A stretch of 64,000 nt of DNA from Lineus longissimus (lineage: Eukaryota; Nemertea; Pilidiophora; Heteronemertea; Lineidae). This document shows positions 12,001 through 59,770 of this stretch, one piece after another. A program made the position numbers and the translations under genes. The stretch lies in the NCBI RefSeq assembly GCF_910592395.1, contig NC_088309.1, positions 28,522,599 through 28,586,598 of the forward strand, given 5' to 3'. The notes beneath the pieces were generated by a model. That model saw only the letters and a program-made list of their open reading frames with translations, ran no database searches and was not told the DNA's origin. Each line of letters begins with the position of its first letter. Within the stretch, counting starts at the first letter, position 1.

Positions 12001-15000
12001 CTGATGCTCAGCTCACATGATAGCCAAACCTCACAGTTAGGGCTGTAAGCACCAAAGATGGTGAGGGAGTTCTCTTCTTAGCTCAAACCATGGCCTAAAC
12101 TAAAGGTTGGCACTATTGAACGCATCCTCAATGCAAGCTTTGGAGAATGGTACATGGTAGCATCTTTAGTTTTCAGAGTATTCAATGCTTCTTAGCATCC
12201 GAGGATTGAATCGCAATGAAAACAGGCAATGCGCATCGGAGCCGGAAAAACGCTTCCTTACAACATGTAGCATGAGTAGATGTACTCAACAGGTATGAGA
12301 AACGCACTGGAATGGCGTTCATCGAAAACAGATCCATAGCCAACGCAAGAACGCAGTTCAAACTTGATGAAACTTGTAACTCATCTGCGATTTCTATAAG
12401 ATGAGCTGCTTAGGTTGCTGACTGAAGATGCCTTACCTGGCATGGCTGAACCACTGTGTAGTGTACTCCTATTGCTGCTACAGATCAATAGTCAACTACA
12501 CTATTCCTTATGCTTGTCATAAATGAGCTACAAACATCTTCTTTACAACGATAAATCCACGTTATTAGTTATAAATGACATCGAAATGCCACAATCAATG
12601 AAATGATAAAGTGCATTCATTAGACATGCATGCAGTGGTATACACGCCCCATGAATCTGACTATTGTAGCCAAAAAGGACAGCGTTCCTGGACTCTGCAG
12701 GGGAAGGTCAGCAATAAACAACTGCCGTCAAACCGACTATTTCAGAGTGACCAACTCTCGCAACAGAAGTGCCATAATGTAAAGATAGAGGCAACTCACT
12801 GAAGCCTGGCCAGTGTTTGAAGTTCCATGTTTCAGCCAAGGAGCTGTAGCAAGGTGCAGCACACAGCCTGCTTTTTCTCTTCACATTGTGTCCTTTTCTG
12901 CCCTGTCTTTTCAGATTTCTAGTCAGCATTGTTTAGTTTTCAGCGCAGGGTAAACACATGTAGATTTTACCCTCATGGATGAAAGGCAGGAAGGAGGCTC
13001 TGCGTTTAGCAACTCTGACCACAGAGAAATGAGGCATGCTCAACACTGAAAGATTTGCAAAAACAATGGCGTAGATATCTGATGGTATAATCAACAGGAA
13101 TCTGCACACCTTGAGAGCATGAATGCTGATTGTGTAGGTAAGACATGTAAGTTATTCACCACTTGTGAAACCAGCCGAGTAAAGAATGGCCCTTCAAGCC
13201 CACAAAGGTTTTACTATCCGGAAGCAAGCAGATTTGCCAAGTTCCTAGGAGGCAAGCAGATTTGCCAAGTTCCCAGGAGGCAAGCAGCTTTGCCAAGTTC
13301 CCAGGAGGCAAGCAGCTTTGCCAAGTTCCCAGGAGGCAAGTTGGTTTGCCATGTTCCCAGGAGGCAAGCAGCTTTGCCATGTTCCCAGGAAGCAAGTTGG
13401 TTTGCCAAGTTCCTAGGAGGCAAGCAGCTTTGCCAAGTTCCCAGGAGGCAAGCAGCTTTGCCAAGTTCCCAGGAGGCAAGTTGGTTTGCCAAGTTCCTAG
13501 GAGGCAAGCAGATTTGCCAAGTTCCCAGGAGGCAAGCAGCTTTGCCAAGTTCCCAGGAGGCAAGCAGCTTTGCCAAGTTCCCAGGAGGCAAGTTGGTTTG
13601 CCATGTTCCCAGGAGGCAAGCAGCTTTGCCAAGTTCCTAGGAGGCAAGCAGCTTTGCCAAGTTCCCAGGAGGCAAGTTGGTTTGCCATGTTCCCAGGAGG
13701 CAAGCAGCTTTGCCATGTTCCCAGGAAGCAAGTTGGTTTGCCAAGTTCCTAGGAGGCAAGCAGCTTTGCCAAGTTCCCAGGAGGCAAGTTGGTTTGCCAA
13801 GTTCCTAGGAGGCAAGCAGCTTTGCCATGTTCCCAGGAAGCAAGTTGGTTTGCCACATTCCAAGCTAAGCTTGTCAAACACACTGAACTAGTTGCCTTCA
13901 GCACTTACTGATAAGTAATGATGCTTTTAGAGAATGTGCTAGAGACAACTTGTGCTTGCCCTGCACACTCATGGGTCATAGGACACGGCAGAGAACATCC
14001 AGTGTAGAGGAATGCATTTTAAGACAACTATAGTGTGTCATGAGCTTGCATTTCAGAGAACGTTGAAAGGAGTGGCTGCCATGATGAAGAACCAAGATGC
14101 TTTCTCAAGTATTACACAATTATTGCACAACCTCATGAATCCTCAGAATAACCAAGATTCCACACAGAGCGCTAACCTGAAAATGAATCATGGAAGTATG
14201 GTTCTGGCCGCACGCCAGATACTGAGCACCAACACCTCAAGAATGTTCCCCATCCATTAGTTTTCCAGTAGTATCATTACACATGTTACATCTGACTTGT
14301 TTTTATAGCCTTTTCCTTGCCACAGACATCCCAAACTCTCTGGTCGTACCACAACCAAGAGGATAAGACACGCGGTCCATGATGACCAAGTCCAAACTGG
14401 GATCCTGCGATCAGAGACGGACAGGTTTGCAGCAGGCCAAATCCAAGATGAACATCACTTTCAAAGATCATCATTACAGAGCCACTGCAATACGCCTGAA
14501 AGCAGACATGTGCCGTCAGAGAAATGGCAGACAAGATTACAGAAATGCTTTTTAAAACCTGGCCAACATTGACAGGTTCTCTCTTCATATGATGGTTTAC
14601 AAGGAATGGCTATTGCTCCCAGAAGACTATTATTGATGTCACAGATACCATGCATCTTCCTCATTTTCCCAACCTCTTTTAGCCAAACAAAAGGTGATAA
14701 CAGCGGGCAGGATTGATGTGATCACTCCCATTGTGATAGAGATAATGGCAATATAAAAATAAAAATATAATCATCTTATACCAATCACTTATTGTTATCC
14801 TGATATCGCACTAAAAGGAACCTTACAAAAGAGGATAGCTTCCTGAAATGTCAGACCTTCCTGAGATTTAGAAAAAGACGACACTGACTTTAGCCGTGAA
14901 AAGAAGTCGCCTGTTCTTGTGGCTTGTTATTTGAACGTTCTCCTGTCGCCGGATATGAATAGGGAGACCCCGGGCAGAATGCTCAGAGCTTGATTATCAC

Positions 15001-22158: not shown

Positions 22159-22230
22159 GGCTCGTTGGTCTAGTGGTACGATTCTAGCTTTGGATGCGAT
22201 AGGTCCCAGGTTCAAATCCCGGGCAAGCCC
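22159..22230 (+). pseudogene. Degenerate tRNA-Pro (anticodon TGG) or tRNA-derived SINE head
   Basis: The 72-base stretch follows eukaryotic tRNA-Pro closely: GGCTCGTTGGTCTAGTGG at the 5' end (A box intact), TTTGGAT as anticodon loop (TGG), GGTTCAAATCC as B box, GCAAGCCC at the 3' end, and a TTTT polymerase III terminator directly after. The fold is damaged: the acceptor stem has a C-A mismatch and a wobble, the anticodon stem has two mismatches, and the T stem has an A-C mismatch. A functional tRNA is therefore unlikely. It lies about 245 bp upstream of the CSPG4 start codon. Confidence 0.6.
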
Positions 22231-26947: not shown

Positions 26948-28234
26948 TGTGGCTGTGACTATCTCATCTCTCTCATCATGTTGTCAACACGGTGGAGCAG
27001 CCAGGACTAATTCGGCCTAGCTATGACCGTTTCATCTCTCTCATCATGCTGTCAACACAGTGGGGCGGCCAGGACTGATGCGGCCTGGCTGTGACTTCTT
27101 CATCTCTCTCTGTGACTGCGTCATCTCTCTCGCCATGTTGACAACTTGGGCATTGGCAGAGCAACCAGGACTGATTCGCCTGGCTGTGACTGTCTCATCT
27201 CTCTCACCATATAAACAACTAGGCAGTGCGGCGAAGACTGATGTGGCCTGGCTGTGACCGTCTCATCTCACTCATCATGTTGTCAACACGGTGGAGAAGC
27301 CAGGTCTGATTCGGCCTGGCTGTGACTGCCTCATCTCTTTCACCATGTTGACAACTTGGCAGAGCAGCCAATACTAATTTGGCCTGGCTGTGACTCTCTC
27401 ATCTCTCTCATCATGTTGTCAACACGGTGGAGCAGCCAGGACTGATTCGGCCTGTCTGTGCAGTGACTTCCTCATCTCTCTCACCATGTTGACAACTTGG
27501 CAGAGCAGCCAAGACTGATTTGGCCTGGCTGTGACTGTCTCATCTCTCTCACCATAATTATTGTGAACACGGTGGAGCAGCCAGAACTAATTCGGCCTGG
27601 CTGTGACTGCCTCATCTCTCTTATCATGTTGTCAACACGGTGGAGCAGCCAGACTTCCTCATCTCTCTCACCATGTTGACAACTTAGCAGAGCAGCCAAG
27701 ACTGATTTGGCCTGGCGGTGACTGTTTCATCAACAACTTGGCAGAGCAGCCAATACTAATTTGGCCTGGCTGTGACTCTCTCATCTCTCTCATCATGTTG
27801 TCAACACGGTGGAGCAGCCAGGACTGATTCGGCCTGTCTGTGCAGTGACTTCCTCATCTCTCTCACCATGTTGACAACTTGGCAGAGCAGCCAAGACTGA
27901 TTTGGCCTGGCTGTGACTGTCTCATCTCTCTCACCATAATTATTGTGAACACGGTGGAGCAGCCAGAACTAATTCGGCCTGGCTGTGACTGCCTCATCTC
28001 TCTTATCATGTTGTCAACACGGTGGAGCAGCCAGACTTCCTCATCTCTCTCACCATGTTGACAACTTAGCAGAGCAGCCAAGACTGATTTGGCCTGGCGG
28101 TGACTGTTTCATCACTCTCATCATGTTGTCAACACGGTGGAGCAGCCAGGACTGATTCGGCCTGGCTGTGACTTCCTCATCTCTCACATCATGTTGTCAG
28201 CACGGTGAAGCAGCCAGACTTCCTCATCTCTCTC
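26948..28234. repeat. 68-bp minisatellite, main block (first part)
   Basis: About 18 degenerate units of ~68 bp alternating between GTTGTCAACACGGTGGAGCA and GTTGACAACTTGGCAGAGCA types, all with CAGCCA(A/G)GACTGATT(T/C)GGCC and CTGTGACTGTCTCATCTCTC cores. Some units are deleted or fused. A 382-bp block is duplicated inside it. Short open frames on both strands come from the repeat. Confidence 0.92.
27351..28114. repeat. 382-bp segmental tandem duplication inside the 68-bp array
   Basis: 27351-27732 and 27733-28114 appear identical by eye, including shared irregular features such as a truncated unit and the sequence ATAATTATTGTGAACACGG. This is a recent higher-order duplication spanning several 68-bp units. 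Confidence 0.85.
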
Positions 28235-28843
28235 AACTTACCACTTGCGCAATATTGGTCGCGCTCGCAAGCTCCTTACAACTGCAGCAACGAAAGAGCT
28301 AGTGCACTCACTGGTGATGTCTCGTTTGGACTACGGAAATAGTCTGTTAGCTGGGGTTAATGAGCAACTCCTGCACAAATTACAACTAGTGCAGAGCCGT
28401 GCAGCAAGAATAATTACAAGGACTCCACTACGTGAGCACATAACACCCGTTTTGAGAACTCTCCACTGGCTTCCGATACCATATCGTATCGATTTCAAGG
28501 TTTTACTCATGGTGTTCAAAGCCAAAAACAACATGGCTCCATCATATATCTCGGACATCCTGCCATCGTATGTCCCAGGGCGATCCCTGAGATCGGATAA
28601 CCAAGAGTTGTTGGTGACTCCCAGGTATCGCCTTGAGACATTTGGTGGCAGAAGCTTTACAGTTTATGCCAGCAAATTATGGAACTCGCTGGACACTAAC
28701 ACCCGCAACAGCTCCACCGTCAGCGAGTTCAAAAGAAGATTAAAAACCAAACTATTTGAACAGTGTTTTTGTTAAGCGCAGCTGAGCAATTTTTCTAATT
28801 GGATTTTGCGCTATATAAATGCTATTTGTATGTATGTATGTAT
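28235..28843 (+). mobile_element. 5'-truncated non-LTR retrotransposon (CR1/L2/Jockey-type LINE 3' end)
   Basis: The reading frame (stop at 28773-28775) encodes the C-terminal end of a LINE reverse transcriptase: YHLRNIGRARKLL, LVMSRLDYGNSLL, LQLVQSRAARIITR, ITPVLRTLHWLPI, YRIDFKVLLMVFK and LWNSLD. These are the thumb-region signatures of CR1/L2/Jockey-like elements. The frame is intact over about 180 codons but lacks the catalytic core and the endonuclease. After the stop comes the usual short 3' UTR with GCGCTATATAAATGC and a terminal (TATG)n run. It sits inside the 68-bp minisatellite; ATCTCTCTCA is present at both edges and may be a target-site duplication, although the array itself contains this sequence. 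Confidence 0.85.
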
Positions 28844-36359: not shown

Positions 36360-42717
<6,358 letters not shown>

Positions 42718-45900: not shown

Positions 45901-47604
45901 TCAACATTTATTCAAATCAATGTTATTTTTTTCAGATTTACGCCACAAACTTGAGAAGTTGAAATGTCGGAAGCTTTCAAAGGAAGAGAAGAAGTATTTC
46001 TTCGAAAAGATTCAGGAATATTTGGAAAGTGTGTTCAGTGGAGAAGAGAAAGGGGAAACGTGTAAAACACCTGCTAAACAATCAAGAGTTATGAACTGTG
46101 ATACTCCCAAGATAACTCCTGGTCTGTTTACTGTCACTAAAACAACACCAAAGTCAACGCCGACTATTCCTAAAACTCTACAAACTACTCCTTCTGTGAA
46201 AAGGACTCAAAAGAATTCTCCTACTGTGTCAAAGTCTCTTTTTGATAAGCGACATTCGGTTGGTACAACAGTTTATTTTGGTGGTAAATCGTTTCCAATT
46301 TCTCCACCATCGCAGGATGTAAGGAGCCCACAACAGTCACATAGAAACATTGTGAATGACCTATTTCCTACTGCTGGTTCACCGTCGTATCAGGCGGCAT
46401 TGAGGAGGCAGGAACAGTCATATGAGGACAATGGGCATAAACAAGACCCTACTGCTGGTTCACTTGAGTTCCTGTCACACGTAAGGAGACAGGAGTCGTC
46501 AAGTCAAACTGCTTCGAAAACTCCCCAAAGTAATACCAAACCCAGGAGGAAAAGGAAAGCAGCACCTGTTACACCTGATACAAATGATGTCTGGTTGACA
46601 GCTACACCTGGAGAAGTATCGCAAGTGGTGAATATATCCGATGAGGAGGAGGAATGTACAAGGAATTCAGTCCCGAGACGGAGAGCAGTGTCGACTGCTA
46701 AACATCGCAAGATGCCAGAAGTCATTGATTTGACACCCAAAAGTTCCAAAGCGAAGGCAGTAGCAAAGAAGCGTAAGGTGTTACCCAGCACGTTGACGTC
46801 TCCAAGGGTGGCACCAGGTGTCAAGAGAAATACCGTCATGAACAATCCAAGGTAATACTGGTTCTGAGATTGTATACCTGTAACTTGAGGGAAACAAACT
46901 AAGGCGTTGGTGTCTTGTGATGGTCTGAAGCACAAAGTGGATGCTAGTTCTCATGAGCCATCTCGAAGCTGCAAAGTCTTTGTTCAATCAGTAATTTCGA
47001 TTGGACGCACATCCTATGTTGAAAAGTACATTGTTCATTCATCTTTCAGCATGTACGAGAGTCAAGAACAGCCAGAGAACCAGTCACCACCAGCCAGGCA
47101 ACCATCACCAGTTAGAACACAGTCGTTTGATACAGATCCATCTATCATTGAATGTCCTCTTTGTAAAGGTAAGCGAACTTGTTCATACAATTGGGGACAT
47201 CATGCCCTCACCATGATGGCACGGTTGGGGAAGTCTCTTATTAATGACTAAAGTACAGTAATCACTGAGGACGCCATGCACTTTGCACAAGACTACCTCT
47301 GACATTTCATCTTGACTTATAAAGCTGTGAAGTCACCACACCACATAACTACCTTCACAAGTTTTCATTAGCAGATTCTTCTTCCTGTCTTATTTCAGAT
47401 TCCTTCCCATTTAACCAAATAGAGTTACATGCCGCAGTCTGTGAGAGCTCTGGCTACGCATGTCCCAATACAAGTAGCTCATCTTTGACGGATCACGATG
47501 TCTTGACAGTGGATGGTGTTGCCTGCCCGATCTGCCAGCAGCCGTTTCCGGTCCTTGAGATAGAGGCTCATGCTGATCATTGTGCATGGACTGCTTACTC
47601 ATAG
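42909..47604 (+). CDS. XNDC1: XRCC1 N-terminal-domain protein (XNDC1-like) with SUMO-interacting motifs and UBZ-type zinc fingers
   Basis: Ten exons: 42909-42953, 43316-43460, 43548-43703, 43979-44121, 44330-44472, 44914-45112, 45350-45425, 45936-46851, 47050-47168, 47399-47604; 2148 bases, 715 residues, all phases consistent. Residues 1-165 match the XRCC1 N-terminal domain: SSQ-like start (VTFTSQDLKYSAETLL), SGIDIGNAGSANIQFLVG, VRMFKEADFNEDAAKEKWDR and KDKPFGLAMMRI. In XRCC1 this domain binds DNA polymerase beta and nicked DNA. A long Ser/Thr/Lys-rich linker follows with two adjacent SUMO-interacting motifs (VVNISDEEEE and VIDLT) and basic nuclear-localisation clusters. The C-terminus carries two C2HC fingers, ECPLCK...F..IELHAAVC and ACPICQQPFPVLEIEAHADH-C, of UBZ4-like ubiquitin-binding type. 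There are no BRCT domains, unlike XRCC1. A role as a ubiquitin/SUMO-reading repair scaffold is inferred. Confidence 0.85.
44583..44858. mobile_element. piggyBac-type hairpin MITE with TTAA target duplication
   Basis: TTAA at 44583-44586 and 44855-44858 flanks a 268-bp nearly perfect hairpin. The ends are CACCTTCAGCGCCGAAC and its partner GTTCGGCGCTGAAAGTG; arms exceed 110 bp and are almost identical. Duplicated TTAA is the hallmark of piggyBac elements, so this is read as a non-autonomous derivative. It lies in intron 5 of the XRCC1-domain gene and looks young given arm identity. Confidence 0.8.
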
Positions 47605-48843: not shown

Positions 48844-51800
48844 CTAACGTCCCCAGGTTTTCTTGATGCACTCGTAACAGCTCCAGTTCCAGATGTTCAC
48901 ACCGCACGTGTAACCTGGACAACAATCGGCGGTCGTCTTGCAGCAGTTTCGGGACGAATAGCATCGCTTCGCCACCTGCCTTGATCTGAAAAGAGGAGCA
49001 AATGACACATTACTGTAAAATCGGTAAAGAGCCGATGTGTGATGCAATATGTGTCTTACACCTTTGAATGTGTATGTCGCAGACTATAGTCTTCTGTTGC
49101 GTTGGAATCCAGGATCACAACCTCCGACTAGTAATGTCTTTGATGTGTCTGCAAAAAGTATAGCCTTGGTGAGACCGAGCAGGCAGCGGGTGCAAAGATG
49201 CTGGTGCAGTCTGGCAGCCGATCTTTCGTGATCACTTGCTATTAAATGCTAACCATTGCCCTCATTATCTGTTGGGAAACACCTTCCTGCATTTTAGGAG
49301 GCGAAGGAGACCAGTATTGGAGTCGCTCAATGACCGTAATGGTCACATTATTAGATCGATGTGAGGTTGACTGCATGAGCTTTTGACATCAATGTTATTT
49401 TCATTGTTATGGTGTTATTGTACAAGTCTCTGAGGCAGTTAAGCGACTGGGGTTGCTTGCAACGATCACACAACTGCACACAACTCAAACTCTGTTTTGG
49501 CTACTCACCGTTTCCTCGTGGATTTGAATATGTCTAGCAGGTTGTTCCTTGACACGGGAAGCTCCTCGACATATTCTGCAGAAGAGGAACATAAATGATA
49601 GTCAGACGCGTTAGTCTGCGTTAACGAGGACGAACCGAGGACGCACTTCACACCAACAAAACACCGCATGGAGACACAATCTCTCACACTGACAAACTGG
49701 GGATAAAACCGCTTCCACCCGCCTTCTATCCCTAGCAAATCTCCCGAATGATTGTCTTATCAGCGCTAACATCTTTCATTAAACTAGTTGAACGGGGACA
49801 AGAGAAAGCGCAATGCCAATGGTGTTAACTCTCTCAGGAGTCGTCACAACCTTCAAACGTTCGACTCTTGCATCGCTGATGATATCGAAAGAGGAATATG
49901 ACACCACTCTTTTCTTTGATGCTAATGAGTCGAGCTTGCGACACTTCTGTGTCTTTTCAGGAGTAACGAAAACTTACAAAAAAAACTGACAACATTTTTT
50001 TTTCAGTGTGTCCGTTATGAATCGTCCGTAAAAGCGTCTTTTACTGAGCACAGGCAATTTTCATGCATTAGTAATAGTAACACAATCCGTGATGTTTTAT
50101 AATTGAGTTTCTAGCTTTGAGTCGTGATGGCGTCTGATTAATATCAGTATCGATTGAGGCTTTGGTGGGCGGATTCCGTTTGTTACATGTTTGGTCCCCT
50201 GGGACGACTGGTGAGTAGCGATAACGGAGCCGTGGGGACCTTGAGGCTGTAGCTGGTTATTGTCAATAAAATTGCAATAGCTGACGGGGCAAACACGGTC
50301 ACCAGTTCTCCATGCAGTGAGTGCCATTCGGCCCCCATTTGTGAACCTCATCTCGATTCACTTATGTCAATGTATAAAAACAGTCAGGAGCCGCATTGAC
50401 CTTGTTGAAGCTCGGTTGGTAATGATGTATCCCATTACAATAAAGAGCGCCACTCTTGGCCGATATTGGAGTAATATAACCGCTCCTTGGAGCTACAAGC
50501 GTTCACGGCTTCCAATATAGTCTGGCAGGGAAACATGCCCTCGGAAAGAGTATCCCGGGGAGAATGGTTATATCAGCCACCTTTTATCTCCGAGGTACTG
50601 AAGGTTTTAATGAGATCTCTATAGACCATACCATAACTCATATATCACCAGACAGGAAAGGACTCTATATCCAAAGAATATTTCAAACTGCTAACCGGGG
50701 CTCTGGTGTCATTGTAATCGGGTCTGCTGATGTTCGCCTATCTACCATCGACTGATCCATGGAAGATGAGTCAAAGGAAATCATTTGATGCAACAAACAA
50801 AATGACAATAACCATCTACTATTGATTTGTTGTCCGCCTCCATCCCCCCGCATGCTCCGTCAGCCGAAAGTGCACCGAGATTGAAAAGCAAGCGGAACGG
50901 ATTTAGTCACTGATGGTAGTATTTATTACCGCGGACTTCACCTCGCGTTGGAAGGGATGGGTTTGGTGCGGGGGTCATTGATGCAATTAATCATTATGAG
51001 AATGGCACATGAAACATAACGATAAATGTCATTCCTACGCAATAAATTAAGAAAGGGCAGCTCGCAATTTGAAGCAAGATATCTGTACTGAAGTCAAATA
51101 TCAAATTGTCTACCTTATCAAAGGGAAGATTCATCAATGATTTTCATAATTGTTTTACTTGTTCGTGCCAAGCTCCCAGGTGGAGACGGCATGTAGTATC
51201 CACACGATCTCTCCGACACCAGAATGCTCCAGAAGTTAAGAGCATCTTAGAACCTCTGCCACATGATCTCGCAACTGATGTGTGCAACGAATTTAATGTT
51301 GTCAGAAACTCATCCTTGGACTTCATACCAAAGGCACCATCTGTAGAGAGTACAATCTTTTAGCGCTTGATTCTGATATCATCATATTTTCTCTTTCTCG
51401 ATGGTACCTCAGCTGTGGTCGCAACATTGGCGAACCAGAAGCCACTTCTTTATCCCTGGTCTTAGTTGTACTCCCCGCTAGCACAAAAAAAATCGGCTAT
51501 CACCAAATAACCTATAGTTTTTGCTGACACGTATCATCTTAAAGAGGAGTTTACCAAACATTTTATCACCAAAAACGCATTATCCCGTAATAAAATTTCT
51601 TTTTTTGAGTAAATGTCTGTATAATTCAATAGAGACGAGCTTCTGATAATGCTCGACATTGCGTATGATTAATGTCATGTTGACAGACGATTATGGGTAT
51701 CGTGCGGGATCATGGCTTGATATTGGGAAACGTGACTTGACAGAAGTAAGGGCAAATCGCACACGTCCGTTGCCTCTTGAACTTGAATCCAGTGGTATTC

Positions 51801-54800
51801 GCCTCGCCGTAGATTACTCGCGCAGTCCAAAACTTACATCGGGATCATGGCTTGATATTGGGAAACGTGACTTGACAGAAGTAAGGGCAAATCGCACACG
51901 TCCGTTGCCTCTTGAACTTGAATCCAGTGGTATTCGCCTCGCCGTAGATTACTCGCGCAGTCCAAAACTTACATCGAGAACCAAGAAAGAATACGCCGCA
52001 TCCCAAATTCAAGGGGCTGGTGACTCCCGGCGCTGGTGATCAGTCGCTTATTCTCGGCTCTCATACGACGAAATGATCTGTCAGTTTTGCAGAGCAGCTT
52101 TCTGAGCGCAGCCTTAATGCAGGAGGCCGGTTTGGAAACTTTTGAAGCAAAGAAGGTGCGTCGTGTTGAAAAGACAGAAACCTTTTACAAGATCTGATGA
52201 CCCGATGATCCAATGACCGTATAAAAGCGTTTCCTAAGAGACTTGGTCTGGGAGTGATGGTGGCGAGTTTGCAATACATAATTTGATCAGGTGATATAAC
52301 ATTGTCCTTTTAATTTGATCCACCCATTTTGAACATTGGGCCTAATCTGATATTAAATGTTTATAATGTTTTCGTCTGGCTCATCGAAAGTGCTCCCGAT
52401 GACCAAATAACATCATATCCCAATGCACGTCCCCCGGGCACGTCCAACTTGGCCCGGTGTGACAGCGGATATAGTCCCCCTGGAGTCATAGTCCGGTAGC
52501 ATTGTATTTGATCAATTAAGCAGCATGATCTATTGTACCGCTAACCCTAACCAAAACATTTAGCAATGCGGGCTATTGTTACACGGACTATCAGCCCTAG
52601 GACTGCTATCCCTTGCACACCGGCGCTAGTGCCCAGCCGTTCATTGACAACAAGTTACCAACTTGGCTTTAATATTGTCGCGAACTCCTTTAGTTAAAGG
52701 ATAACCATGTTCATTTATATTTTGTCTCGTGTCCTACTGTTCATCACCTCAGCAGGAGCTACGACCGAACAATAAAAACTAAAAAACCCGTTTTTCAGAG
52801 ACGCCTGCTAAAACGGCTTTTTTGGAGAGTTTACCGCGGAGTTGAAGTAAAGCCTGAGATACGAGAGCCCAGAAGGCTCATCTGAAATTTGAATTTTGGA
52901 TATCGACTTTCAAATATGCCTTCTGTGTTTTCGTAGATAGTAGGCCCCTATTGTATATTCAATTGTCATTAGAAGAGGAAATGTAATCTTGTTCATTGAA
53001 CACATTACATATATTGATCGTTTTAATTACAAATTGCTCAACTCCCAGAGGTATTTCAAACAAGTGGAGCTTTTCAACTTAAAAATACTGTTTCCAGGAG
53101 ATAAGAGCGAGGTATTCGGGTTTTAATTAAAGCCAGCGAAGAGAATTCATATTACGAAACTGTTTTAATCACGCCTCGTATATCACTGCTCTAGGACAAG
53201 ACGTCCCACACGTGATCGCTGGGCCCATGGTTCCAACAAATGGATCAGGGCAGCCAATATCCTGAGGAAGTCGCTTCCCAGGCTCTGCACCCCTGGTTTC
53301 CTCAGGATGGGGAACCAATACGGCATTGTCACTTCTACAGGCCCAGGGAACCATCTGTCTCTTATCGATAATCGCTGCTCAAATATTGCAAGAGGAGATA
53401 CTTCATCATTCAAAGGATCTATTGTTTGTGTGTCGTCTGCTTTAATTGTTGATTTAATTATTCTGACATGGAGCCCTGCATCCAGGTACTATTTGTCAGA
53501 TGGCGCTTGACTTGATGTCAGGGCATCCCTCCTATTGGGACAACAAGTTGGAATTAGCAAGCACCATCGTCTGGTGACAATAATGACTGCTATCTATACA
53601 CGTACTTGGGGATGGTGGTGACGTTGCTCTTCCTGTGACGTCATTTGGTCAACTTACTTCTTTCCCAACATACAACAATCCGGTCCATCCCAAATTGCCA
53701 ATAAGCTGCTAATCCCCTAATACTTTGCCCGATTTCTATTTAATTGTTTATATCTCAGCCTAATGGTGTTTCTTTTATCTGCTAAAGAGGAACGTTAACG
53801 TCATTAACATCTTTACATTTAGGAATTCGAGAAGGCTAAGACAACAAAACGACTACTTTCTTTTTTCTGCTAATGGTGACATTGCAGAAAAAAGCCTGAC
53901 TGTAAATATCCACGGCGCACATCCAGCTGACAACACACGACAAAAGAGTTCGTTTCCTTAAGAGAATTAGCATTTACTTCATTGTGTAAGCTGCATATCG
54001 AAAGATAGAAGACTACCCATCTATTACTAGCTGTTTGTCGGTGCACGTCGTTTTCAAGATAACAACCATTCCCGGCAATTTATTGTCAACATGTCTTGGC
54101 AATATCACCACTATCGTTTCTGGATTTAGACACTAAAATAAAGTACTTTTTATAAGGAAGCAAGAATAGCACTGCAATCGCAGAGATATGTTGTTGGCGT
54201 CTGCTGAAGTCTGTGCCGAGGCCTGGGCTAGTAAACCTCGAGGGTTTCTTGTCATTTCGATCTGGTGCTTTATTCTCTGGCTACTTTTAAATTCTGTTTC
54301 TTCCAAGTGTGTTTGCCTGAGTGGTGATGGGAATTACTGCAGGGTGTGGGTGTTTAAAAGTTATTTTAACTTCAGAAAGTTCTTTAGACCTAATGCGACG
54401 TTAAAGTTAACATCCGGGTCATTGCTTGCGTGGAATGACATTTTGTTAACGGCAAAGCCTTTGCAGTCGGGTAAGTGATGTCGAGCTTACCTGCAGGTAA
54501 TGATAATTGCTCATACTGGTACACCTCTGGATATTCATCATCATATGGGTTGTTATAGGTTGTTCTCGTCAAGACCGCTGGAAAGAAAGACAAATGGGTG
54601 AAAAACGTTCGTTGGATCAGCTGAGGTCATCTCATCGTTGGATTTCGCCATTCACCACTTTAAGGAAGCAGCGAATTTGAGACATCCAGTCGGCTTTGGC
54701 CAATCAAAATACACATATCATACTTGTTCGGCGCTGGCCATGATAGTTGAGAGCTTCTGATTGGCCAAAAAGCGACCGGAAGTCCCAAGAGATGTGGAAA

Positions 54801-57800
54801 GTTGCGAATATGCAGCCAATCTGGTGGGCTGTTGATGGTTGAGATGGAGTATGAAGTCGACCGCAGCAGTTGTCGTGGATCCCGGTATTCCTTAACCTCC
54901 CTATTGTCATTAATTCCTCACCCGAATTCTAGTAATCAGAGAAAAACAGCCAGGAACCAGCCCTTCTTTCATCTCCCATTTCATGTCTGCGGTTCATAAA
55001 AAAAGTCATGTTTTGTCATAATAAACTCATCCGTCTGCTGATCGCTTCAAAGCAACGATTTTCTGAGATTCCGACGACAGATGCTGGTGAAAGGAAAAAT
55101 GCATCTTTGTGAAATATTATATCATTGGTAGATTTGGAAATGGAAACGAAACAGACCCGGTTCTGTTTAAAAAGAAATGCCGGAGGCCGGTAAAAACACG
55201 GGGGTAAAAAGCCGTAAAGAGCATATATATATGAAGAACATATAGTTTTAGCGAAAAGGCTTGGTGGAAGTGCCTTCTCTTCCTCTGGTTTGCTTTCGTG
55301 TTTTAGAGGGTAGCCTAGACAACCAGGACTATTTCTAGCGTAGGCCCGACAGCGATATTTTGCCTTCGGATGATATTTTGAGGTTTGGCCGGCTGTCGTA
55401 TAACAAACAGTTGTTCATGAAAAGGAAACCTCTCAGCCAAAATGGCGGCCTGAAAAACAGCATATAAAGATAACCTGAACAGGCATTTCACGGCAATTGC
55501 TGGCTTCAGATGATGCATGTTTCTAATCCTTCGTTTTGGCCGAGAATATGTGCGAGTCAACCAGCTAAATTAACAGTAATAGTAGTGTGCTCATGTTTCA
55601 AGCGAAAGAAACTTCCCCCAAAAAGACGTGATATTTAAAGGCGAGATTGGTTGTGTTGTTGTGGGGTTTCGTGGCCGACTACAAGAGCCCAGTCAAGGTT
55701 GGCGATCACTTAGTTCGACACTCAAGCAGGAGATTGTTCACCCTCTTGACTGGTCGAGCAAATTCGTGGAGAAAAAGAAACAGTGACTGTATTTCTTGGT
55801 TGAATTATGCGATGAAAGTTGTTCTACTGGCACCTTTGTTTCAGTTTGGAAGTCACTATCTAATCAAAATAAAGCTACTAAACATCTCGTCATGATCGAG
55901 AGCGAATGATTACGATCGTGAATATTGATAACTATCCATTTTCAATGGGTGAAGCGTTTATCGCATCAAGAACCTGAGCATGCAAATGATTTTTCATTCG
56001 CTCCTGAAACTTGTGTCATTCCCAGTATCCTATACTCAACGCATTTGTCTTCAGAGCTTGTTCCATCCTGGCTCTCCGGTTACAACCATTAATTTGATTA
56101 CTTCGCCAAGTGATGTGATTCAAAACAAACTCATTACTTGAACATTTACACGGAATGGGAGTGATTTAGGAGGATAGTTGCTGATCAGTTAATTGAGTTT
56201 TCTCATGCTGCAAGGCCGCGACGATGTTACGAAATGTGTCCGGACAAAGACTTTGGTGATTACAAGAGTAATCCATTGTTCATTCCTTCAGAGTGATCAT
56301 CATGAACATTACAGTGAAGACGTTGACTTCAACAGATCCAAGGTCGACTTTTTTATTGTTTCAGCGAGCAGTGCAAAGACTTTGGTGATTACAAGAGTAA
56401 TCCATTGTTCATTCCTTTAGAGTGATCATCGTGAACATCACAGTGAAGGCGTTGACTTCAACAGATCCAAGGTCGACTTTTTTATTGTTTCAGCGAGCAG
56501 TGCAAAGACATGGTGATTACAAGAGAAAACCATTGTTCATTCCTTTAGCGTGATCATGAACATTGCAGTTGTCTCATATATTGTCGGCCTTTCTCAAATT
56601 ATGTGGACTATTCACCAAGTAATTGCATTAATTACTTATCCCCATCTAATCTAACGAGATATAGACGCTGTCATCATTGATTAAGGACGCTTTGGAGATT
56701 TCACGCAACAGTTTGAGGAAAAGGCAACATCTGTTAGAAACTGGGCCATTTTTTGTCATCAGTTAACATCGCTCTGTCTACTCAAGATGCTGTACTCTAA
56801 CACATACATCATCAGGGTTTCTCAGGAACTTTAAATGGCTATGGACCGAAGATGATTCACATTGATAGTTGCATTTCGGAGAAGTATGTTTTAGTACCGA
56901 GATATAGTGCAGACGAGTGAGTGACCGGCTGTAGTGCGGCTAGTAAAATGATTATAGCAGCTAACACCTCCACTTGATAACCCCTGGCGATATCCCCACT
57001 CGATTGATTTCTCATAGCTTTGTCTCGACTGGATGTGTTACATGTATGTTTTTATTGGGTTTTCTCTGTCTGCTAATCGTGTCCTCTCCCTATATGGGGT
57101 TTGTGTCGCTGCCGTGAAGAGATGACACATGCACAGCCAGCAGAGACATAACAGATCGGGCAGAGACATGCACATCCAGTATTGACACAAGTCTAATATC
57201 TAAGGTTGGCACTTGTGGCGGGGAATACCTTCGAAAATCAACTGAACAAGTTGCTCCTCACGTGACCCGGGTTTATTGGAGTTCTATGAGTCTGAGAGAT
57301 ACCACCACAGAGACCAGTCGCCGTTGACATGTTGAAGTGGCCTTATTCAGGCATTCTGGTTGTGAATTTGCCCCGCTCATTATACCAATTAAGCCTGTTT
57401 GAATGGAAAGTGTAATAATCTCTACTAATCTAGTTGAATTCACATCAGTGATTCCCGCTTTCGTATAAAAGGAAATTCATTGGCTATTGGCCACGCATCA
57501 TTACGACCGATATACCTTAATTGAAAATGTCATACCAATTCAGTAATGACCATGCAGCAAATATATCGCTTTGACACCAATCCATATTTCATACTGTGAC
57601 TGCCATTTTTTGATGTCCTTTCGCAGTTTCTGACAATGAGTTGGCCCTTTGGCATGTTTAGTGTATCATCGAGTTTCTAGAAACACTCCAGGGTAAGAAT
57701 AAGACTTCTTTGCCAGCGTCTCCACCAATGATAGACTCTTTAGATCCTTTCGCCAGCCCAAGAATCTCAAGCCCAGCCGGAGTGCATGTTAATGTGGAAG

Positions 57801-58383
57801 GTTCCCAGCCCGGCGACGGCGCCAACGACTGTGCACAACCATGGAGCATATCCAACGCAAAAGCGGGGAAGAACCGGTAACTCAGGTCTCTGAACAAATT
57901 GAGATGGATAGTATCGTCATCATTTCAGCAAATAATCATCGCTTGTAAATATTGGCGGAAAGAATTAGTTTCTCACGAGTGCGCCTTGATTATTACGTCA
58001 AGTGGACCTTTTATCCGAGCCTCGCGAGGACCTTGACATGACATCACATTTCATAAAATAACTTGTCATTTTCATCAATATTTTGCTGATAATTTTCATC
58101 AATATTTTGCTGATAATATTGATTGTCTAAGACAAAATTACGACTGCCTTGATATCCCTCTTAGGTTCGGAACCAAACCATGCGGACTATTGAGCTTCTA
58201 ATCCTGATTAATCCCTTAGAGAAATGTTGTAACTGAGACACATTTGAAGGACAACCATTTCTTTAACACCAGCCGATTATAACAAATGTCAACATTATGA
58301 GAAGTGTAGTGAACATAAGGCTTACCTTCTAGGCATAGTAACAAGACGTAAGCCAAAGCCAACGGGACGTAGTTGCAGTTCAT
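48844..58383 (-). CDS. Precursor of an eight-cysteine, probably amidated peptide (agatoxin-like peptide neurohormone type)
   Basis: Four exons, 5' to 3': 58383-58326, 54577-54491, 49575-49509, 48985-48844; 117 residues, phases 1, 1 and 2 all consistent with strong GTAAGY/GTGAGT donors. Exon 1 is a signal peptide (MNCNYVPLALAYVLLLCLE). Exon 2 is an acidic Tyr-rich spacer (TTYNNPYDDEYPEVYQYEQ). Exon 3 ends in a basic cleavage region (KSTRKR), and exon 4 adds SRQVAKR immediately before the cysteine-rich part. That part has spacing C-x5-CC-x5-CC-x4-C-x8-C-x2-C and ends TWGR-stop: after removal of Arg the Gly would give a C-terminal Trp-amide. CCPGYTCGVNIWNWSC and the WG(K/R) end line up with the CC-x4-C-x-C-N-L-W-G-x-N-C pattern and KWG(K) end of arthropod agatoxin-like peptides, prohormones of neuroendocrine cells. 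Homology is inferred by eye; an unrelated knottin hormone is the alternative. Confidence 0.72.
49576..54490 (-). other. Second intron of the peptide gene
   Basis: Nearly 5 kb holding the 135-bp duplication, a small hairpin at 53251-53307 (CCTGAGGA / TCCTCAGG) and no other recognised feature. Short open frames on both strands show no domains. Confidence 0.45.
51706..51975. repeat. Exact 135-bp tandem duplication
   Basis: 51706-51840 and 51841-51975 are identical by eye. Since 135 is 45 codons, a plus-strand frame stays open over both copies (51659-52039, 126 codons) with a 45-residue repeat including GSWLDIGKRDLTEVRANRTR. No family is recognised and no splice logic ties it to a gene. It lies in the large second intron of the peptide gene, on the other strand. 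Recent duplication or assembly error are both possible. Confidence 0.85.
54578..58325 (-). other. First intron of the peptide gene
   Basis: About 3.7 kb. Besides the 129-bp repeat it has a 23-bp direct repeat near 58070-58117 (TCATCAATATTTTGCTGATA twice). An open stretch at 57658-57897 (minus) has a possible acceptor but no acceptable donor and is not called as an exon. Confidence 0.45.
56246..56560. repeat. 129-bp tandem repeat, about 2.4 copies
   Basis: AAAGACTTTGGTGATTACAA begins copies near 56246 and 56375; a third partial copy starts near 56504 with AAAGACATGGTGATTACAAG. Units include GTTGACTTCAACAGATCCAA and TTTATTGTTTCAGCGAGCAG. It sits in the first intron of the peptide gene. Confidence 0.85.
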
Positions 58384-58870: not shown

Positions 58871-59770
58871 GATGAGACAGTCACAACCAGACCAATTCTC
58901 AAGCCTGGTCGCGATGAGACAGTCACAACCAGATTGATTCTCAAGCCTGGTCGCGATGAGACAGTCACAACCAGACCAATTCTCAAGCCTGGTTGCGATG
59001 AGACAGTCACAACCAGACCAATTCTCAAGCCTGGTTGCGATGAGGCAGTCACAACCAGACCAATTCTCAAGCCTGGTTGGGATGAGACAGTCACAACCAG
59101 ACCAATTCTCAAGCCTGGTCGCGATGAGACAGTCACAACCAGATTGATTCTCAAGCCTGGTTGCGATGAGACAGTCACAACCAGACCAATTCTCAAGCCT
59201 GGTCGCGATGAGACAGACACAACCAGATTGATTCTCAAGCCTGGTTGCGATGAGACAGTCACAACCAGACCAATTCTCAAGCCTGGCGGTGATGAGACAG
59301 TCACAACCAGACCAATTCTCAAACCTGGTCGCGATGAGACAGTCACAACCAGATTGATTCTCAAGCCTGGTGGCGATGAGACAGTCACAACCAGATTGAT
59401 TCTCAAGCCTGGTGGCGATGAGACAGTCACAACCAGGTTGATTCTCAAGCCTGGTGGCGATGAGACAGTCACAACCAGACCAATTCTCAAACCTGGTTGC
59501 GATGAGACAGTCACAACCAGATTGATTCTCAAGCCTGGTCGCGATGAGGCAGTCACAACCAGATTGATTCTCAAGCCTGGTCGCGATGAGACAGTCACAA
59601 CCAGACCAATTCTCAAGCCTGGTCGCGATGAGGCAGTCACAACCAGATTGATTCTCAAGCCTGGCGGCGATGAGACAGTCACAACCAGACCAATTCTAAA
59701 GCCTGGCGGCGATGAGACAGTCACAACCAGACCAATTCTCAAGCCTGGCGGCGACGAGCATGTCACAATG
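58871..59770. repeat. 42-bp minisatellite, about 21 units, open in both strands
   Basis: Units of 42 bp with GATGAGACAGTCACAACCAG followed by ACCAATTCTCAAGCCTGG or ATTGATTCTCAAGCCTGG and a variable YGC/GGC end. Because 42 is divisible by 3, long frames of about 350 codons stay open on both strands (14-residue periods such as DETVTTRPILKPGR). The core equals the reverse complement of part of the 68-bp family at 24-29 kb. Not called as coding: no splice sites, signal peptide or flanking domain were seen. Confidence 0.93.

Follow-up and report, generated by a model that had tools for sequence, protein, structure and literature searches.

A probable CCWamide/agatoxin-like hormone gene with an altered cysteine framework in the nemertean Lineus longissimus

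The window analysed here is a stretch of 64,000 nucleotides from the nemertean Lineus longissimus (RefSeq assembly GCF_910592395.1, contig NC_088309.1, positions 28,522,599 to 28,586,598 of the forward strand), and positions are numbered from its first letter. Its minus strand carries a gene of four coding exons whose joined frame has 117 codons followed by a TAG stop (Table 1). As read from its sequence, the product probably belongs to the CCWamide/agatoxin-like family, likely as a variant with one moved cysteine, and its cysteine-rich peptide is likely released, amidated and secreted. The protein search returned a single protein, LOC135483929 of the same species, which is 100% identical to the 117-residue product over 100% of its length and which RefSeq names "uncharacterized protein". 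With this full-length match, a chance joining of the exons can be discounted. The three introns (3748, 4915 and 523 bases) all follow the GT-AG rule and have phases 1, 1 and 2, respectively. A first-pass annotation, made from the letters of the window, had proposed four exons without phase conflict between 48844 and 58383; all four are present on the minus strand over exactly this range and yield the RefSeq protein. The leader crosses a few residues into exon 2 while the mature peptide lies wholly in the last exon. The third intron splits an arginine codon as CG^A, between its bases 2 and 3, and is flanked by basic residues: exon 3 ends in RK followed by CG, and exon 4 opens with A followed by SRQVAKR.

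Table 1. Coding exons and predicted processing features of the LOC135483929 gene (positions in the window)
Feature	Position	Strand	Content
Coding exon 1	58326..58383	-	Residues 1-19 plus base 1 of codon 20, with the start codon and the bulk of the signal peptide; donor GTAAG, phase 1
Coding exon 2	54491..54577	-	Remainder of the signal peptide, followed by Tyr/acid-rich pro-region that includes NPYDDEY; acceptor CAG, donor GTAAG, phase 1
Coding exon 3	49509..49575	-	Remaining pro-region with NNLLDIFKSTRK and bases 1-2 of the Arg codon; CAG acceptor, GTGAG donor, phase 2
Coding exon 4	48844..48985	-	Base 3 of the Arg codon, then SRQVAKR, the mature peptide, GR and the stop
Dibasic KR, predicted convertase site	48964..48969	-	Directly before the mature peptide; predicted processing
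Predicted mature peptide	48853..48963	-	37 residues, eight Cys, C-terminal Trp; read from the sequence
Gly-Arg, predicted amide donor and basic end	48847..48852	-	Predicted amidation

Two repeats accompany this gene. A 135-base unit is present in two tandem copies (100% matching) at 51705-51976, within the second intron, and a 42-base unit forms a tandem array of 21.4 copies at 58871-59768, just upstream of the gene. Since 42 is divisible by three, either strand of the array stays open over a long frame (359 and 348 amino acids); these frames are unlikely to be genes.

The precursor begins with a hydrophobic leader, estimated to extend from residue 1 to about 23 as judged by hydropathy only (maximum of 2.89 at residue 8). 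The structure model features a helix at residues 5-26, with blocks across residues 1-20 at predicted local distance difference test (pLDDT) values of 86 and 97. The spacer (residues 20-71) contains 9 acidic residues, 6 basic residues and 6 tyrosines, and it ends with NNLLDIFKSTRKR, whose final Arg codon is the one split by the third intron. SRQVAKR is then followed by the cysteine-rich part CYSSRNCCKTTADCCPGYTCGVNIWNWSCYECIKKTW, GR and the stop. The layout of signal peptide, acidic Tyr-rich spacer, multibasic region and cysteine-rich end closing on WGR, as described in the first-pass annotation, thus holds on the joined exons. The signal peptide would direct the precursor to the secretory path, where prohormone convertases would cleave after KR, and perhaps also after the earlier RKR, while a carboxypeptidase and an amidating enzyme would convert TWGR to TW-amide. 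The resulting 37-residue amidated peptide, with a computed monoisotopic [M+H]+ of 4280.71 if it carries four bridges, would be a secreted neurohormone with a cystine knot, belonging to the CCWamide/agatoxin-like family. We infer that LOC135483929 acts as an amidated neurohormone.

Passages of Thiel et al. (2021; PMC8557429) present the spiralian CCWamides as orthologues of the arthropod agatoxin-like peptides (ALPs) and attribute to nemerteans CCWamides with two additional paralogues. According to the same paper, mass spectrometry confirmed a CCWamide, not further specified as to paralogue, in L. longissimus larvae. Genes of the family have the signal in the first exon and the mature peptide in the last, with eight cysteines and an aromatic residue preceding the amide signal; another aromatic residue often lies between the sixth and seventh cysteines. 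An intron interrupts the last basic codon of the penultimate exon after its second base, and the exon number is usually three, with five in one Notospermus paralogue (PMC8557429). LOC135483929 agrees with this layout in its short precursor, eight cysteines, W-G-R signal, placement of the peptide in the last exon and split basic codon. These are also the features that it has in common with the spiralian CCWamides as these passages describe them, together with an origin in the same animal group, and indeed in a species from which a CCWamide is known. It may already be among the nemertean CCWamides of PMC8557429 under the CCWamide name.

The comparison with arthropod ALPs was based on a crab ALP query (letters from PMC8449533), which matched 128 proteins; the 120 that were listed served as the ALP set. 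This set includes isoforms and close relatives, and the profiles made from it are less diverse than the numbers imply. Its members that bear organism names are presumably all arthropod, going by these names, and some entries bear none. The framework of LOC135483929, C-x5-CC-x5-CC-x4-C-x8-C-x2-C with the end TWGR, has loops of 5, 0, 5, 0, 4, 8 and 2 residues, and a loose knottin motif searched in the six frames of the window matches nowhere but in this peptide. All 120 listed ALPs share loops of 6, 6, 0, 4, 1, 6 and 1 residues, and LOC135483929, which lacks this framework, was rejected as an ALP proper. The difference noticed at first reading, an extra CC and altered C-x-C pairs, is therefore genuine.

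Set in register, the two frameworks compare as follows. The first loop has 5 residues in the worm peptide versus 6 in ALPs. From Cys-2 to the CC pair there are 6 residues in both, the first of which is the extra cysteine in LOC135483929, and the loop after CC has 4 residues in both. Cys-5 and Cys-7 are separated by 8 residues in both, with Val in the worm peptide at the position of ALP Cys-6. The last gap has 2 residues versus 1, and the CxC ends are changed. The net change from this comparison is one cysteine lost (Cys-6) and one gained (beside Cys-2). Shared with ALPs (U8-agatoxin-Ao1a-like) are most loop lengths, the basic pair, the pro-region as judged by profile, the N-[IL]-W motif of the hairpin and the WG end. 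In LOC135483929 the hairpin segment reads C-GVNIWNWS-C, with aromatic residues between the sixth and seventh cysteines. The WG ending, whether or not a basic tail follows, is found in 117 of the 120 listed ALPs, and that of the worm peptide is likewise followed by a basic residue. In some arthropod ALP precursors (P0015, P0033, P0057 and P0068), KR and the mature peptide are separated by an additional stretch like SSLIYLFRR that the others lack, a pattern as expected of alternative splicing; at this place LOC135483929 has a stretch of the worm's own, the spacer SRQVAKR.

Likeness to ALPs extends outside the knot. A profile of the pro-region was built from 119 of the 120 listed upstream regions, one of fewer than 35 residues being dropped. 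The LOC135483929 pro-region scores 11.4 bits against it, a value reached by none of 5000 shuffles (best 11.3) and by none of 350 tiles cut from the frames of the window (best 5.5); scored by best domain it gives 9.0 bits, which 2 of the 5000 shuffles reach. This likeness was first seen in an alignment and tested afterwards. Comparison by hhalign of the precursor with 39 ALPs, picked from the 120 for species spread, gave a probability of 90.7 and, for this single comparison, an E of 1.3e-6 over residues 57-107, a range that takes in the NNL stretch as well as the peptide. The whole precursor scores 15.3 bits against the 39 ALPs and its reversed sequence -4.1. The resemblance to ALPs claimed at first reading is upheld by the hhalign result, the intron phase of the family and the WG-basic end. 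The intron phase and the pro-region, together with the score tests, make common descent with the ALPs likely, and these two shared features render independent evolution less likely. The first-pass annotation had envisaged a divergent or independent branch outside arthropods; the idea of a new or independent branch is not supported, the spiralian CCWamides having already been published as ALP orthologues and a CCWamide being known in this very species (passages of PMC8557429). What appears new, as read from the sequences, is a cysteine framework unlike that of all 120 listed ALPs and the likeness of the pro-region, called non-conserved in PMC8557429, to that of ALPs.

Several observations weigh against the family assignment. 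Apart from the framework itself, the distance from the basic pair to the first cysteine is 1-2 residues in 107 of the 120 listed ALPs and 0 in LOC135483929. The mature region scores low: the bare peptide gives 4.9 bits against the profile of 120 ALPs, 2.8 with its flank and 3.4 within the precursor, and the score of the bare peptide is reached by 26 of 2000 shuffles with the cysteines fixed and by 3 of 2000 full shuffles. With the cysteines fixed and the parts of the precursor shuffled apart, 26 of 3000 shuffles reach the whole-precursor score, the best at 27.3 versus 15.3 bits. Exact NNL occurs in only 4 of the 120 ALP upstream regions, and in a looser form in 18, while PY plus an acidic residue is found in 43; the pro-region thus resembles the ALP profile in its entirety. 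When the crab ALP was the sole partner, BLASTP aligned 17 residues, 7 of them identical (E 0.002). No Pfam family reaches its cut-off for LOC135483929, and a search of the worm genome with the ALP consensus gave no match, not even to exon 4, so that paralogues could not be compared this way. Structure models are poor across the peptide region and no solved fold was matched with confidence. The four coding exons differ from the three or five of the published spiralian genes. Finally, passages of PMC8398477 name the digestive gland as the main site of CCWamide in the adult oyster, so that expression of the family is not confined to neurons.

Other sites of expression are recorded in passages of the literature: oyster larval apical neurons express family members (PMC10396302), ALP masses were matched in a cockroach neurohemal organ (PMC12604039) and sites in a decapod include the intestine, among others (PMC4888303). 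The receptor of the family was unknown in 2021 (PMC8557429), and none of the literature titles on CCWamide or agatoxin-like peptide, taken with passages of some of the texts, reports one.

Only one solved chain is matched by the ALP profile at E <= 0.01, namely Tbo-IT2 (PDB 7ay8; E 3.8e-4). Its structure by nuclear magnetic resonance, in passages of PMC7824768, has a knot of C1-C15, C8-C20 and C14-C31 and a hairpin bridge C22-C29; mapped by spacing to the ALP numbering, these correspond to the knot C1-C4, C2-C5 and C3-C8 and the hairpin C6-C7. Tbo-IT2 has the inhibitor cystine knot (ICK) fold, as LOC135483929 presumably does, but Tbo-IT2 is a spider venom peptide of ten cysteines with a hairpin bridge that the worm peptide must lack. 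Because ALP Cys-6 is missing from LOC135483929, its sequence excludes an ALP-type C6-C7 bridge. The knot bridges C1-C4, C2-C5 and C3-C8 could persist, and if all three are kept, Cys-7 and the new cysteine next to Cys-2 would be the remaining partners. The fourth bridge would then run from the new cysteine to C7 instead of joining C6 and C7, a re-routing that this comparison suggests. A broader scenario is offered tentatively, as one that may well prove wrong: a nemertean branch of the agatoxin-like hormones, in a paralogue that has no name yet, would have rewired its cystine framework by moving one cysteine, exchanging the hairpin bridge for one between loop 2 and the hairpin, while precursor, intron and amide were kept.

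Other explanations of LOC135483929 were considered. The peptide could belong to a nemertean side group such as the CCWamide-prohormone-3-related Wamides (CP3-r), a nemertean Wamide group in passages of PMC8557429, and thus be known under another name. Its predicted TW-amide end and its departure from the ALP framework would suit this option, while its intron and eight cysteines fit the description of CCWamides and ALPs; this placement is considered unlikely. It is improbable that LOC135483929 is a mucus or venom toxin of the worm, a knottin built like those of spiders. Faint matches point in that direction: Toxin_21 (E 0.23) and Toxin_12 (E 0.46) in Pfam with the last exon, Conotoxin (E 1.6) with the precursor, heteropodatoxin (E 0.15, followed by Dickkopf-2 at 0.56) and many spider knottins among 16 Foldseek rows, at E 1.6 or worse. 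None is significant, the best Pfam spider-type toxin reaching 11.9 bits for a cut-off of 21. The mucus of Lineus sanguineus contains an ICK protein, U-nemertotoxin-3, described in passages of PMC10674772 as agelenin-like with a Toxin_35 domain, but Toxin_35 is not listed for the LOC135483929 precursor at E up to 10. U-nemertotoxin-3 and the alpha-nemertides of Lineus are, like the peptide predicted here, small secreted ICK peptides from the same genus; by their published descriptions they differ in being known or proposed mucus toxins. The intron phase and pro-region of LOC135483929 follow the hormone family, of which some members are suggested in PMC8557429 to have been recruited as spider venom. 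Searching the genome with the last exon, an approach that scores the best candidates only and may miss paralogues, retrieved the gene itself and one match of E 0.25 without the framework.

Knottins converge often, and an independently arisen cystine-knot hormone would resemble ALPs merely by sharing a common fold, as the low score of the mature peptide might suggest. Such convergence is judged highly improbable in view of what is shared outside the knot: the intron in the last basic codon, the pro-region, the N-x-W of the hairpin and the WG end. An artefact of the gene model is scarcely credible: a RefSeq model need not rest on reads, yet the exons of the first-pass annotation and those of RefSeq give the same 117 amino acids.

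If LOC135483929 is indeed a CCWamide/agatoxin-like gene with a moved cysteine, a framework invariant across all 120 listed ALPs would have been re-routed without loss of gene identity. CCWamides and ALPs together form a protostome-wide hormone family, in which such a member would be a natural experiment on the bridges needed by the receptor. A protein "uncharacterized" in RefSeq would gain a likely name, and the pro-region likeness would provide, beside the cysteines, a second handle for finding divergent members.

The rest of the window holds several minor features. A 28-base unit forms a tandem array of 22.7 copies at 13220-13855, covered by open frames that overlap on the two strands, and a 382-base unit occurs in two tandem copies (100% matching) at 27351-28114, within a longer region rich in repeats of 68-base units. 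The 176-residue frame at 28245-28775 (plus strand) has no Pfam match at E 0.01 and resembles the end of a reverse transcriptase of a retrotransposon without long terminal repeats (non-LTR). Two plus-strand frames of 311 and 114 amino acids (45920-46855 and 46907-47251), with no Pfam match at the same threshold, are perhaps parts of an ordinary gene. A match to the transfer RNA family at 22159-22230 (plus strand) lies just above the cut-off (33 versus 29 bits) and may be a repeat. On the minus strand, 39527-39892 encodes a Kelch-repeat frame that matches the Attractin/LZTR1 beta-propeller family (70.1 bits, cut-off 50) and, more strongly, the KLHDC2/KLHL20 Kelch family (79.4 bits, cut-off 50).
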